Source: Phyllobacterium myrsinacearum | GTDB lineage: Bacteria; Pseudomonadota; Alphaproteobacteria; Rhizobiales; Rhizobiaceae | Direction of reading: 5' to 3' | Assembly (NCBI RefSeq): GCF_014138285.1 | Contig: NZ_JACGXN010000001.1 | Span: forward strand, 1,787,314-1,851,313 | Length of the DNA stretch: 64,000 bases | Shown: positions 19,664-31,610 of the stretch, in pieces | Layout of the letters: every line of letters begins with the position of its first letter | Numbering within the stretch: the stretch's first letter is position 1 | The notes under the pieces: generated by a model | Database searches by the model: none | The model's input: only the letters and a program-made list of their open reading frames with translations | What the model was told of the DNA's origin: nothing | Made by a program: the position numbers and the translations under genes

Positions 19664-20389
19664 ATGACCAAAACGGCAATTGTTACGGGTGGAACACGTG
19701 GTATCGGCGCTGCCATATCCGTGGCTCTGAAAGCGGCAGGTTACAAGGTCGCGGCAAATTACGCCGGCAATGACGATGCGGCGAAGAAATTCACGGAAAA
19801 AACCGGCATTGCCACTTATAAGTGGGACGTTTCCAATTATGAGGAATGCGCGGCGGGTATCGCCAAGATCGAGACCGATCTCGGGCCTGTTTCCGTGCTG
19901 GTGAATAATGCGGGTATCACCCGCGATGCCATGTTTCACAAAATGACCCCAGGCCAATGGGGCGAAGTGATCAATACCAATCTGACCGGCCTTTTCAATA
20001 TGACCCATCCGGTATGGACGGGCATGCGTGACCGCAAGTTCGGCCGCGTGATCAATATCTCCTCGATCAACGGACAAAAAGGTCAGGCCGGGCAAGCCAA
20101 TTATTCCGCAGCCAAGGCTGGTGACATTGGTTTCACCAAGGCACTGGCCCAGGAAGGCGCACGCGCCGGTATTACGGTCAACGCGATTTGTCCGGGTTAT
20201 ATAGGTACAGAAATGGTGCGAGCGATTGATGAGAAAGTGCTCAATGAGCGCATCATACCGCAGATTCCGGTCGGCCGTTTGGGTGAACCGGAAGAAATTG
20301 CGCGCTGCGTCGTGTTCCTTGCATCGGATGACGCCGGATTCATCACGGGCTCCACATTATCCGCGAATGGCGGGCAATATTTCAGCTGA
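19664..20389 (+). CDS. phaB: Acetoacetyl-CoA reductase
   Basis: A 241-residue NADPH-dependent short-chain reductase giving D-3-hydroxybutyryl-CoA for PHB synthase. The cofactor site is TGGTRGIG, then NNAG, Ser in NISSINGQKGQAGQ and the YSAAK catalytic pair; the GQKGQAGQANYSAAKAG block is diagnostic for PhaB. An excellent ribosome site (AGGGAGGGG) precedes the ATG. A strong terminator follows, so phaA-phaB form a closed unit. PHB synthase (phaC) is not in the window. Confidence 0.97.
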   Translation: MTKTAIVTGGTRGIGAAISVALKAAGYKVAANYAGNDDAAKKFTEKTGIATYKWDVSNYEECAAGIAKIETDLGPVSVLVNNAGITRDAMFHKMTPGQWGEVINTNLTGLFNMTHPVWTGMRDRKFGRVINISSINGQKGQAGQANYSAAKAGDIGFTKALAQEGARAGITVNAICPGYIGTEMVRAIDEKVLNERIIPQIPVGRLGEPEEIARCVVFLASDDAGFITGSTLSANGGQYFS

Positions 20390-20404: not shown

Positions 20405-20442
20405 AAGACGCCGCTGGCTGGAAACGGCCGGCGGCGTTTTCA
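20405..20442 (+). terminator. Rho-independent terminator after phaB
   Basis: ACGCCGCTGGCTG (20408-20420) pairs with CGGCCGGCGGCGT (20425-20437), with two G-T pairs and a GAAA loop, followed by TTTCATTTT. Confidence 0.88.
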
Positions 20443-20560
20443 TTTTGCGGGACAACAATTCCAGAGTTTGCGGCCAAAAGTTAACAGCGGATCCTGAATC
20501 TTGTCCTATTTCGGCCTCCGGCGAGGGGTGATTGGTGCGACTCCTCGTTCTCATGCACAA

Positions 20561-20623
20561 GATGTAGCCGTGAACAAAACGGGAAAACGGATAAAGCGCT
20601 GATTCGTCGCTGATTCGTTCTGC
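20561..20623 (+). repeat. 63-bp direct repeat, unit A
   Basis: Aligned without gaps to 20842-20904; 51 of 63 positions agree and the last 25 are identical. That identical end contains an 11-bp tandem duplication (CGCTGATTCGT twice), placing two GATTC sites exactly one helical turn apart. Confidence 0.85.
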
Positions 20624-20841
20624 CTTTGATCGGAGTGTTAATGAAATCGCTGCTCGCGGCGCCAGATAACTTAACTAAGTGTAAGGAAATATTACGATTT
20701 TCTTAATCGGGGAAAATCCTGCACTTCATTGGTCCATCGATGAAACCCGGAAAACCCAAAGGTTAATGCGGAGGAGCGGATTCGAATGATTCTTGCAATT
20801 GCCGATTCAGCATCTTGTGCGGCTCGTATCACAAAAAGCTA

Positions 20842-20904
20842 GATGTGGCCGTGAACAAAGCAGGAATCTGATCCTAGAGCTGATTCGTCGCTGATTCGTT
20901 CTGC
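20842..20904 (+). repeat. 63-bp direct repeat, unit B
   Basis: Second copy of the unit, 281 bp after the first. It keeps GATGT-GCCGTGAACAAA at the left (one variable base) and the 25-bp identical right end with its paired GATTC sites; the middle 18 bases have diverged. Confidence 0.85.
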
Positions 20905-21070
20905 TCGCGTTCTATTTCTTAATGGAACACTCCGTGAATCGGTTCGCAATTGTTTATCTTGAGGTCGCCGCATACTTTCTGTCTGATACCGATAATGCTA
21001 TCGGATAGTGCATGCCCGGCATGCCTTGCTGGTTTTGGTAAGGCCGTCGTGCCGGTGTTGGATATTTTTG

Positions 21071-24000
21071 ATGAACCTTATGCCTACCCCCGAACTTCCT
21101 CTGATCCTGAGCGGTCGTGACGTCACCGCCGTTCTGGGGCCGACGAACACGGGCAAGACCCATCTCGCTATTGAACGGATGCTGGCGCACCAGACGGGCA
21201 TGATCGGCCTGCCGTTGCGCTTGTTGGCGCGGGAAGTTTACAACCGTGTCGCCGAGCGGGTGGGGCTGGCCAATGTCTCGCTGATAACAGGCGAGGAAAA
21301 GATCATGCCACCCGGTGCGCGTTATGCGGTGTGCACTGTCGAGGCCATGCCGCGTCAGACCGATGTGGATTTCGTCGCTATCGATGAGGTCCAGCTCGCC
21401 AATGATCTGGAGCGCGGACATATCTTTACCGATCGCATCCTGCACTTGCGCGGCCGTCAGGAAACGCTGCTGCTTGGCGCGGCCACCATGCGCGGGATAC
21501 TGGAAAAGCTGCTACGCGGTATTTCCGTCGTCACCCGCCCGCGCCTGTCCAACCTGACCTATGCCGGTTCGAAGAAGATCACGCGTCTGCCTCCCCGCAC
21601 TGCGATCGTGGCCTTTGCGGCTGATGAAGTCTATTCCATTGCCGAACTGATCCGCCGCCAGAACGGTGGTGCGGCTGTTGTCATGGGTGCCTTGAGCCCG
21701 CGTACCCGCAATGCTCAGGTGGAACTCTACCAATCGGGTGATGTGGATTATCTGGTGGCGACCGATGCGATCGGCATGGGTCTCAACCTCGACGTAGACC
21801 ATGTGGCCTTCGCGCAGGATCGCAAGTTTGATGGCTATCAGTTCCGTGATCTGTCGCCAGGTGAAATCGGCCAGATTGCCGGCCGTGCCGGCCGGCATCT
21901 GCGCGATGGCACGTTCGGTGTCACCGGACAGGTCTCGGGATTTTCGGAAGAGTTGGTGCAACGGGTGGAATCGCACGCCTTCGATTCAGTCAAGATTCTG
22001 CAGTGGCGTACAGCCCGATTTGATTTTTCAAGTCTTGATGCCCTGAAGCGGTCGATCGACACACCCGCACCTGTGGAAGGGCTGACCCGCGCGTTGCCAG
22101 CGGTAGACCAGCAAGCGCTTGAATATCTGTCGAAAGATCCGGGTATCGCCTCGCTGGTCAACACGCCGGAACGGGTAGCGCTCCTCTGGGATGCCTGTGC
22201 ATTGCCTGACTACCGGAAAATTGCGCCGGCACAGCATGCGGATATTATTGCTTCGATCTATACAGATCTCGTTGAACATGGTCATGTGAACGAAACCTAC
22301 ATGGGCGAACAGGTGCATCGGGCCGATACGACCGATGGCGATATCGATGCTTTGTCGCGACGGATCGCCCAGATCAGAACTTGGACTTTTGTGTCTCATC
22401 GGCCAGGATGGCTGGCAGATCAGGCACATTGGCAAGAAAAGACGCGTGAAATTGAGGACAGATTATCAGATGCACTGCATGAACGGTTGACGAAACGCTT
22501 CGTAGACCGCAGGACAAGCGTGCTTATGAGGCGCCTGAGAGAGAATACAATGCTAGAAGCCGAAATTAGCCCTGCCGGGGACGTTGTTGTCGAAGGGCAC
22601 CATGTTGGACGTTTGGATGGATTCCGTTTCACGACGGACAGCCAGATTGATGGAACCGATGCAAAAGCCGTGAAGGCCGCTGCACAAAAAGCCTTGGCGA
22701 CAGAGTTCGACAATCGCGCTGAGCGCTTCGCCGCTTCCGCGAATGGCGACTTTGCTCTGGCCTCGGACGGGACGTTGCGCTGGATCGGCGCTCCGGTCGC
22801 CTCCGTTGTCTCAGGCGAACAGCCGCTGAAGCCGCGCGCCGTGCTTCTGGCCGATGAGCAGTTGACGGGACCGGCACGCGACAAAGTCGCTGCCCGTGTT
22901 GACCGCTTCCTTGCCCATCATGTGGATACGGTTCTCAAGCCGCTGGTTGATCTTGCCAACGCCGATGCGCTGGTCGGGATCACGCGGGGGCTGGCGTTCC
23001 AGCTGGTCGAAAATTTTGGCGTGTTGCAGCGCCGCGATGTGGCCGAGGATGTTCGGGGTCTCGATCAGGATTCGCGCGCTGCCCTGCGCCGTCTGGGCGT
23101 GCGCTTCGGCGCTTACCATGTCTTCCTGCCCGCGTTGCTCAAACCCGCTCCTGCGGGTCTCCTGACGCTGCTGTGGGCGCTGAAGGAAGATGCCAAGGAT
23201 CGCCCGGGCTATGGTGACGTGGTTCAGGTGCTTTCCGCAGGCCGCACGTCTGTCGTTACCGATCCGGCCTTCGACCCGGCCTTCTACCGGCTCGGTGGCT
23301 ATCGGCTGCTCGGCCGCCGCGCCGTGCGCATCGATATCCTCGAGCGTCTGGCTGACCTTATCCGTCCGGCACTGGCGTGGAAACCGGGCGCCGGAACACG
23401 GCCTGATGGTGCTTATGACGGTACCCGTTTTGTTGTTACACCGGCCATGATGTCCATTCTTGGTGCGACAGCCGACGATATGGAAGAGATCCTCAAGAAC
23501 CTTGGATATCGGTCGGAAGCAACCGATGCGGCTGTTGTATCGGCCAAAGTCGCCGAGCTCGATACGGTCGCACAGGCACCTGCTGCGCAGGAAGCAGGGG
23601 TTGCTGCGCCGGAAAGCACCAAATCCATTCCCGCTGCCGAACCGGTTGGTGATCCGATTGCCAAGCCAGCTGTCGAGGCCGCGGCGCCTGTAGAGGCTGT
23701 CGAAGAAGCGCCTGCGGCTGTTGCCGAGGTTGCTCCAGTGGCCGAAGAAGCACCCAAGCCGGTCCTTCTGTGGCGTCAGGCTCCCCGTTTCGAAGGCCGC
23801 AACAACAATCGTCGCCCGCAGGGTGGCCGTGAGAATCAGCGTGAACCGCAGGCCCGCAACGCCAATGGCAATAGTCAGGGCGAAGAGCGGCAGGACGGCC
23901 GTCCCAATCGCAATGCCGGGCCACAGGGTGAGCGTGGCGAGCGCAAGGATTTCCGGGGCAAGGGCGGTGGCAAGCCTGGCGGCGGCGACCGCTTCAAACA

Positions 24001-24133
24001 GGAAGGCGGCAAGCCTTCCGGTAAGCCCCAGCAGCATGGCAAGCGGCCTGAACGTGAAGAGCGTCCGGTCAAAATCGACATGGATTCTCCTTTCGCCAAG
24101 TTGCTGGCGTTGAAGGAACAGATGAAAAAGTGA
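21071..24133 (+). CDS. SUV3-like DEAD/DEAH-box RNA helicase
   Basis: A 1020-residue superfamily 2 helicase related to mitochondrial SUV3. Walker A is GPTNTGKT (23-30), the Walker B/DExH-like motif is IDEVQL near residue 105, and the helicase C domain includes VATDAIGMGLNLDVDHV and GQIAGRAGRH. A long middle region follows, then from about residue 840 an Ala/Pro/Glu-rich linker and an Arg/Gly/Asn-rich disordered tail (FEGRNNNRRPQGGRENQRE) typical of RNA-binding extensions; it ends in a short helix (FAKLLALKEQMKK). Likely RNA unwinding in decay or ribosome work. The start at 21071 has no clear ribosome site; 21080 is an alternative. Confidence 0.9.
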   Translation: MNLMPTPELPLILSGRDVTAVLGPTNTGKTHLAIERMLAHQTGMIGLPLRLLAREVYNRVAERVGLANVSLITGEEKIMPPGARYAVCTVEAMPRQTDVDFVAIDEVQLANDLERGHIFTDRILHLRGRQETLLLGAATMRGILEKLLRGISVVTRPRLSNLTYAGSKKITRLPPRTAIVAFAADEVYSIAELIRRQNGGAAVVMGALSPRTRNAQVELYQSGDVDYLVATDAIGMGLNLDVDHVAFAQDRKFDGYQFRDLSPGEIGQIAGRAGRHLRDGTFGVTGQVSGFSEELVQRVESHAFDSVKILQWRTARFDFSSLDALKRSIDTPAPVEGLTRALPAVDQQALEYLSKDPGIASLVNTPERVALLWDACALPDYRKIAPAQHADIIASIYTDLVEHGHVNETYMGEQVHRADTTDGDIDALSRRIAQIRTWTFVSHRPGWLADQAHWQEKTREIEDRLSDALHERLTKRFVDRRTSVLMRRLRENTMLEAEISPAGDVVVEGHHVGRLDGFRFTTDSQIDGTDAKAVKAAAQKALATEFDNRAERFAASANGDFALASDGTLRWIGAPVASVVSGEQPLKPRAVLLADEQLTGPARDKVAARVDRFLAHHVDTVLKPLVDLANADALVGITRGLAFQLVENFGVLQRRDVAEDVRGLDQDSRAALRRLGVRFGAYHVFLPALLKPAPAGLLTLLWALKEDAKDRPGYGDVVQVLSAGRTSVVTDPAFDPAFYRLGGYRLLGRRAVRIDILERLADLIRPALAWKPGAGTRPDGAYDGTRFVVTPAMMSILGATADDMEEILKNLGYRSEATDAAVVSAKVAELDTVAQAPAAQEAGVAAPESTKSIPAAEPVGDPIAKPAVEAAAPVEAVEEAPAAVAEVAPVAEEAPKPVLLWRQAPRFEGRNNNRRPQGGRENQREPQARNANGNSQGEERQDGRPNRNAGPQGERGERKDFRGKGGGKPGGGDRFKQEGGKPSGKPQQHGKRPEREERPVKIDMDSPFAKLLALKEQMKK

Positions 24134-31292: not shown

Positions 31293-31353
31293 CGGCGCCT
31301 CCTATCGTTCATGGTTCAAAAGGATTGGTGCGCCGGCAAATCTGCCGCGTCTA

Positions 31354-31446
31354 ATCCCTCCGCCGGTACAAGCCGGATCAGGTTCCGCGGGTTGGCAGGG
31401 TTTCCCCTTGCGCCTCTCAGCCGGTCGATGAGACCGGCACCCCGTT
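31354..31446 (-). ncRNA. TPP (THI-element) riboswitch
   Basis: On the minus strand the conserved parts appear in order: ACGGGGTGC, CTGAGAGG, AACCTGATCCGG, TTGTACCGGCGGAGGGA. These are the P2/P4 cores of the thiamine pyrophosphate aptamer. It stands about 60 bases before thiB. Between aptamer and gene two hairpins exclude each other, one of which covers the ribosome site, so control is probably at translation start. Confidence 0.95.
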
Positions 31447-31610
31447 AGAGCATCTCAAGGATAGAGATTCGGCCGAGGCGGTGCAAGCGGTGGATGCTTA
31501 TGAAATCTTTATGTTTTGCCGACTTTGCCAAATCGAATGCTGACATGTTCAGCCGTATCGTCCGCCGCGAAAACACCCCCATCCGTATTTTTCCGACGAA
31601 AGGATCAATC

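Follow-up and report, generated by a model that had tools for sequence, protein, structure and literature searches.

Between phaB and a Suv3-type RNA helicase gene of Phyllobacterium myrsinacearum, a patch of non-coding DNA contains two copies, 281 bp apart, of a rigid module of about 95 bp, detected by a repeat search. The architecture of the module, its copy number, its conservation and its linkage to the helicase gene are directly observed. Judging from the sequence, we consider it an even chance that the patch is a composite array that regulates the helicase gene in cis, in which a core of GcrA/CcrM type would be combined with LexA control of the proximal copy. The richness in GANTC sites, by which the patch was originally noticed, is largely a by-product of the conserved regulatory module.

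The features of the locus are reported below; positions refer to the window, i.e. the whole stretch of 64,000 bp that was analysed, which corresponds to positions 1787314-1851313 of contig C1, and the supporting evidence is given in parenthesis.

19664..20389, + strand: phaB, acetoacetyl-CoA reductase, the gene before the array (NCBIfam TIGR01829, over cut-off)
20405..20450, + strand: possible phaB terminator, a 14-bp inverted repeat followed by T-rich DNA (inverted repeat I1 and reading of the sequence)
20496..20940, no strand: GANTC cluster, 11 sites (direct count; rank 1 in an 864-kb sample)
20551..20645, + strand: distal module (model R1, 80 bits; rigid pattern, 22/23 key positions)
20558..20567, + strand: distal palindrome-like box CNANATNTNG (sequence; consensus)
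20572..20586, + strand: distal box A, GAAC-N7-GAAA (sequence pattern)
20600..20606, + strand: distal YGATTCG core, with the GANTC of 20601 (sequence TGATTCG)
20617..20631, + strand: distal box B, degenerate, GTTC-N7-GATC (exact GTTC-N7-GTTC in 14/137 upstream modules)
20637..20643, + strand: GTTAATG after the distal module (TTAA at +66 in 58/66 dereplicated family upstream modules, 6/19 outside)
20804..20819, + strand: GATTCAGCATCTTGTG element preceding the proximal module (GATTC within it kept in 18/18 aligned loci, hand-picked)
20833..20927, + strand: proximal module (model R1, 73 bits; rigid pattern, 23/23 key positions)
20839..20848, + strand: proximal palindrome-like box CNANATNTNG (sequence; consensus)
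20853..20867, + strand: proximal box A, GAAC-N7-GAAT (sequence pattern)
20881..20887, + strand: proximal YGATTCG core, with the GANTC of 20882 (sequence TGATTCG)
20898..20912, + strand: proximal box B, GTTCTGCTCGCGTTC, an exact alphaproteobacterial LexA-type box (exact in 135/147 last modules)
21074..24133, + strand: Suv3-type helicase gene, 1019 aa (Pfam PF22527 and PF00271; best PDB match Suv3, 6f4a, E 7e-38)

The two genes are both encoded on the + strand. The first-pass annotation had described a gene-free gap of 681 bp between them; the gap measures 684 bp, from the phaB stop at 20389 to the helicase start at 21074, the latter being the start that aligns with relatives. The hairpin at 20405..20450 was called by a terminator scan for the - strand only. 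Among the best 80 of 560 named helicase loci, the nearest in helicase protein sequence are those of P. calauticae (96%) and P. myrsinacearum (93%), and phaB was found in 71. It was not found in the array-bearing Brucella/Ochrobactrum loci L044 and L046-L048 and, since these keep the array, the helicase gene is to be regarded as its partner. Of the three targets initially offered for the cluster, namely the helicase gene, a small RNA and a chromosomal landmark, the first is clearly the right one. SMc03878, the gene adjoining SMc03877, is presumably phbB. The helicase probably corresponds to rhizobial mgpS: in the available part of PMC4941405, SMc03877 is named mgpS and is an RNA helicase. Elsewhere in the window, a TPP riboswitch is located at 31338-31454 on the - strand (65.5 bits).

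Within the module, positions are conveniently counted from the GAAC of box A, taken as 0. The CNANATNTNG box extends from -14 to -5, box A is made up of GAAC at 0 and GAA at 11, and a pyrimidine at 28 is followed by GATTCG at 29. The GTTC at 45 is usually part of a TTYGTTC that begins at 42, and TTAA follows at 66. In the copy nearest to the gene, a second GTTC at offset 56 generates the GTTC-N7-GTTC of box B. Modules were collected with a finder that demanded a match at 18 of 23 key positions. The core and both GTTC are among these positions, which inflates the frequencies of these elements; the pyrimidine does not belong to them. The core is exact in 144/147 distinct end modules and in 127/137 upstream modules, while box B is exact in 135/147 of the former against 14/137 of the latter. 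After dereplication at 80%, the complete YGATTCG is present in 168/174 modules, and a pyrimidine, at the position unused by the finder, precedes the core in all 174. TTYGTTC is found in 67/68 last and 65/66 upstream modules of the family, and in 17/21 and 6/19 outside it; the corresponding figures for TTAA at +66 are 46/68 and 58/66, and 9/21 and 6/19. Box A rarely takes the exact form GAAC-N7-GAAC (10/147 end and 10/137 upstream modules). The finder gave no match in 800 kb of DNA of the same genome away from the locus. Between the modules, at 20804-20819 and around 20762, the words GATTCAGCAT and GGTTAATG/GGTTAACG are kept in most of 18 hand-picked aligned loci.

GANTC sites in the gap

The high density of GANTC that had been reported, ten sites in 445 bp, was reproduced, but the number is eleven, with starts at 20496, 20539, 20601, 20612, 20779, 20788, 20804, 20864, 20882, 20893 and 20936. 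Four of them are paired exactly 11 bp apart, as described (20601/20612 and 20882/20893). The original expectation of about two sites corresponds to that of shuffled sequences, because the whole window contains 146 GANTC, whereas its dinucleotide shuffles contain 304 on average; at the density of the 864-kb sample the expectation is 0.83 per 445 bp. The ranking covers this sample, which was composed of 40 stretches of 20 kb from the P. myrsinacearum genome plus the window, and contains 1,604 GANTC; the genome extends over another 5.1 Mb. The segment of 445 bp with 11 sites is the densest in the sample, where the next four have 6 each; the cluster is thus exceptional in the sampled part of the genome, where no other segment is equally dense. 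For a single segment of 445 bp with 0.83 sites expected, the Poisson probability of finding 11 is 1.3e-9.

Taken by itself, the 11-bp pairing exceeds prediction only slightly, as GANTC-N6-GANTC occurs at 33 places genome-wide, with about 31 and about 21 predicted from two measured site densities. The 16-mer GATTCGTCGCTGATTC is found, genome-wide, only at the two 11-bp pairs of the gap. Another of the 33 places, C1:856540-856555, precedes the start of the gcrA profile match at 856579 by about 23 bp, and gcrA itself may therefore be methylation-controlled.

Upstream of the helicase gene, the number of GANTC in the best segment of 445 bp varies from 4 to 12 across 16 loci of the genus. In the third repeat of the module, GANTC is present in 87/147 end modules and in 0/137 upstream modules, and GTTC is retained where GANTC is lost; outside the family, GANTC is often gone from the second repeat too, and GTTC remains. 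Some of the sites are present because the half-sites of GTTC-N7-GTTC overlap GANTC. The spread of 4-12 and the third-repeat counts speak against GANTC density as the signal, and its proposed role as a functional feature is accordingly not supported; of the conservation expected in relatives, the core is kept, but the number of sites is not.

Distribution and spacing of the module

A sequence-only model, R1, was built from 60 modules. In the P. myrsinacearum genome it detects this locus only, with E values of 3e-22 and 4e-20, the next match being at 0.29. At E <= 0.01, matches were obtained in 113/151 genomes of the family (82/109 genera) and in 92/121 genomes of an order sample (four of the own family); at E <= 0.001, 13/142 genomes of a class sample were matched, 11 of them outside the order. 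A phage or plasmid origin was considered and rejected, as the rigid pattern gave 0 matches in viral contigs and the distal module, used as a blastn query, was matched by neither plasmids nor phages.

BLAST comparison of the gap with 59 genomes, the own included, gave a match in 28. Combined with the upstream DNA of the best 80 of 560 named helicase loci, this survey detected the blocks in front of the helicase gene in Phyllobacterium, Mesorhizobium, Aminobacter, Pseudaminobacter and Brucella/Ochrobactrum, and a single copy in two Bartonella records. At least one block, allowing up to 4 of 21 core letters to differ, is found in 109/109 helicase-upstream regions, a set in which several genomes are present twice and 29 regions were obtained via a DNA match to this gap.

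The module lies directly upstream of a Suv3-type helicase gene in 73 of 80 model-found loci, chosen by hand or by score and hence non-random. These are 29/29 best-scoring family loci (L119-L147), 19/20 family regions (L148-L167), the twentieth of which ends at a contig edge, 15/20 order regions and 10/11 class loci outside the order; three genomes are common to the two family sets. At L264, 24 bp separate the end of the module from the start codon (ATG) of the helicase. The five order regions lacking the helicase are second or further loci, four of them from genomes whose helicase-linked array was also examined and, since their arrays are located away from the helicase, the module is not always the promoter of this gene. 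Two arrays, L253 and L260, appear to be flanked by convergent genes, if reading frames poor in GC at the third position are left aside. The former (L253:5104-5962) contains four modules, at distances of about 265, 263 and 255 bp, in an 11-kb region devoid of the helicase, which indicates that an array can stand alone. At L262:5460-5543, a module is found beside phage-capsid and connector genes, perhaps part of a prophage or of a gene transfer agent.

Conversely, the array can be lost and the gene kept: among 20 genomes of the family in which the model finds no match, the helicase is retained in 16, and the 800 bp upstream of these 16 loci contain the repeat pattern in none and a LexA-type box in one. 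In 10 further genomes with lower-scoring matches, the helicase is present in 10/10 and an exact LexA-type box in 5/10.

Arrays contain one to five modules. Two modules are separated by 270-274 or 281-285 bp, two classes one helical turn apart, in 70/73 one-pair family loci, and 97/131 spacings under 330 bp, taken from all collected loci, fall within the same ranges. In L151, spacings are about 277, 279, 288 and 283 bp, after allowing for model offsets. A periodicity of R 0.65 at 10.5 bp was measured over 20 hand-picked lineages; helical phasing is nevertheless suggestive only, because the loci share ancestry and, in other arrays, 28 spacings of 151-267 bp are not periodic (R 0.11 at 10.5 bp).

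Candidate regulators and alternative readings

The alphaproteobacterial LexA operator is GTTC-N7-GTTC, according to the available parts of PMC3323433, PMC7987155 and PMC12700426. Such a box is found in the proximal module, at 20898-20912, and GTTCCAGCATTGTTC, of the same form, precedes the lexA gene of this genome (C7:199492-200202). Box B is exact mainly in the gene-proximal copy, as expected of an operator at a promoter, and the proximal copy probably carries a LexA operator that would place the helicase under SOS control. The available parts of PMC3323433 and PMC12700426 do not mention the helicase among the SOS genes.

The entire array might be read as plain SOS operators, i.e. LexA-binding arrays, strong at the promoter and weak upstream, with GANTC present by overlap only and devoid of any methylation role. 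The exact box of 135/147 end modules and the GTTC held by third repeats that have lost GANTC speak in its favour, and an excerpt of PMC7987155 states that overlap between LexA boxes and GANTC arises easily and has no effect on regulation. Against it, the most constant part of the module is the YGATTCG core, located between boxes A and B and containing no LexA half-site, box A differs from GAAC-N7-GAAC, and upstream modules persist although most lack an exact box B. In addition, a rigid module of 95 bp is, to our knowledge, not needed by ordinary LexA boxes. We regard this explanation as unlikely.

The core fits another candidate regulator, GcrA. In excerpts of PMC7987155, an extended motif, YGAKTCG, is ascribed to GcrA-activated promoters in Caulobacter, and was not found in Brevundimonas. 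The TGATTCG found at 20600 and 20881 fits this motif, as does the variant CGATTCG; the methylation-dependent control by GcrA/CcrM put forward in the first-pass annotation is supported to this extent, but not by the GANTC density on which it had been based. GcrA is encoded in the P. myrsinacearum genome (PF07750, C1:856579-857103). In a comparison of 40 hand-picked genomes, GcrA was found in 19/19 module-bearing genomes tested, two of them (G041, G056) with weak module matches, and no module match was found in 6/6 tested genomes without GcrA. This co-occurrence lends weak, lineage-confounded support to a role of GcrA, because a module match is likewise missing from 15 tested genomes that encode GcrA. 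According to the available part of PMC6813329, GcrA ChIP-seq peaks of Brucella abortus are 4.4-4.7 times enriched in GANTC and include lexA and uvrA; GcrA depletion altered ogt and mutL, and not the other tested targets, and induction of lexA was GcrA-independent. A promoter scan detected no sigma-70-like promoter on the + strand of the gap.

Alternatively, the modules may be bound by a dedicated DNA-binding protein, or by the helicase protein acting as autoregulator, their likeness to LexA and GcrA sites being in part coincidental. The module is private to one locus in its own genome, has a rigid 95-bp architecture with the palindrome-like CNANATNTNG box, and forms arrays of up to five copies, with family spacings clustered at 270-274 and 281-285; yet the 28 aperiodic spacings of 151-267 bp (R 0.11 at 10.5 bp) fit poorly, and the search for a candidate protein yielded none, although a LytTR gene lies inside the array in L148 and L149. 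This reading, too, seems improbable to us. In these two loci (L148:4474-5882 and L149:277-1697), a divergent pair encoding a DUF6622 membrane protein and the LytTR regulator is located between two modules. The LytTR regulator was rejected as binder, as it is suggested by L148 and L149 only, no such gene was seen among the ORFs of 16 other gaps inspected by eye, and the LytTR gene of P. myrsinacearum is located elsewhere in the genome.

That the modules act as RNA, either in the leader of the helicase transcript or as small RNAs, is suggested by their length near 100 nt, by an orientation that is the same as that of the gene, and by the apparent location of the L253 and L260 arrays between convergent genes. 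We deem it quite improbable, as Rfam detected nothing in the gap, at gathering and E-value thresholds, the consensus fold amounts to -0.9 kcal/mol with 0 compensatory pairs in 60 sequences, covariation resembling base pairing does not extend beyond the short palindrome, single-sequence folding gave a z of -1.0, and a terminator-like site was not found between the modules. Rfam, folding and covariation thus offered no evidence for the small RNA option of the initial annotation. Three more candidates were rejected: a tRNA, none being found in a scan, a short upstream peptide starting at GTG, weighed by eye on the module sequences, and the EcpR1 sRNA, whose locus, divK-pleD/rpmG, is elsewhere (PMC4414408, available part).

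In five Mesorhizobium loci (L052, L054, L056, L058 and L063), TGTGGATAA directly precedes the distal module. We take this word to be DnaA-box-like. A chromosomal landmark, such as a replication origin, a DnaA-titration or an anchoring site, could be imagined from this word and from hemE, located about 280-480 kb away in 7 genomes with both on one contig (G007 only if the contig is circular), but is very improbable and was left without evidence, as the sign of the GC skew does not change near the locus, hemE is found at variable distances whereas the link to the helicase is constant, and TGTGGATAA is absent from the gap of the window itself. A replication origin, in particular, was discarded on the basis of the missing skew switch and of hemE lying about 280 kb away.

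Proposed mechanism and known systems

In the reading that we favour, the composite array, the patch would control the Suv3-type RNA helicase gene that starts at 21074, and is provided with two copies of the rigid module. LexA would bind the GTTC-N7-GTTC of the proximal copy and bring the helicase under SOS control, while the YGATTCG of every copy would be methylated by CcrM and read by GcrA together with the housekeeping RNA polymerase, so that activity would be timed to the replication of the locus. TTYGTTC and TTAA, found at constant offsets that are clear within the family, are possible weak promoter elements, which would make the module a promoter-sized unit. The high GANTC count would result from overlapping sites and local drift, and would not itself be the signal.

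Tentatively, and with more doubt than confidence, the array may represent a class of iterated cis-regulatory module not described before, in which a methylation site and SOS-type boxes are combined in a rigid 95-bp geometry, in one to five copies before one RNA helicase gene, traceable across alphaproteobacterial orders. It would tie RNA turnover to the passage of replication and to DNA damage, possibly via a nucleoprotein structure that extends over modules separated by about 26-27 turns of the helix. No description of the element was found in the available portions of the open-licence literature searched (GANTC/CcrM, LexA/SOS, GcrA ChIP, mgpS, SUV3). Helicase or phbB names gave no match in PMC4433202, and the helicase was not found in the accessible text of PMC11514494 and PMC3973325.

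The proposal names a specific target, a Suv3-type RNA helicase, damage or cell-cycle control of which was not found in the literature examined, as far as available. The array also provides a clean natural case for a point made in the available part of PMC7987155, namely whether a GANTC overlapping a LexA box is functional or carried along. In our judgement, a non-coding element of this length, whose geometry is kept beyond the order and which nearly always precedes the same gene, is unusual in bacteria.

Among known systems, MucR targets are AT-rich, whereas the module is a long specific sequence. The MucR-shielded hypomethylated GANTC promoters, as presented in the available part of PMC5172544, resemble the array in having intergenic GANTC that a protein may shield from CcrM. 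GcrA/CcrM promoters (YGAKTCG, excerpts of PMC7987155) are closer, given the YGATTCG of 168/174 modules and the GcrA of 19/19 tested genomes; here, however, one core per module is kept and not a GANTC cluster, and a location of the core between -10 and -35 is hypothetical. Alphaproteobacterial LexA operators are matched by the exact box of the proximal module and by the same form before the own lexA. They differ in that most upstream copies of the module have no exact box, and in that the box is here part of a rigid module of 95 bp, which has YGATTCG as its core and is repeated in arrays.
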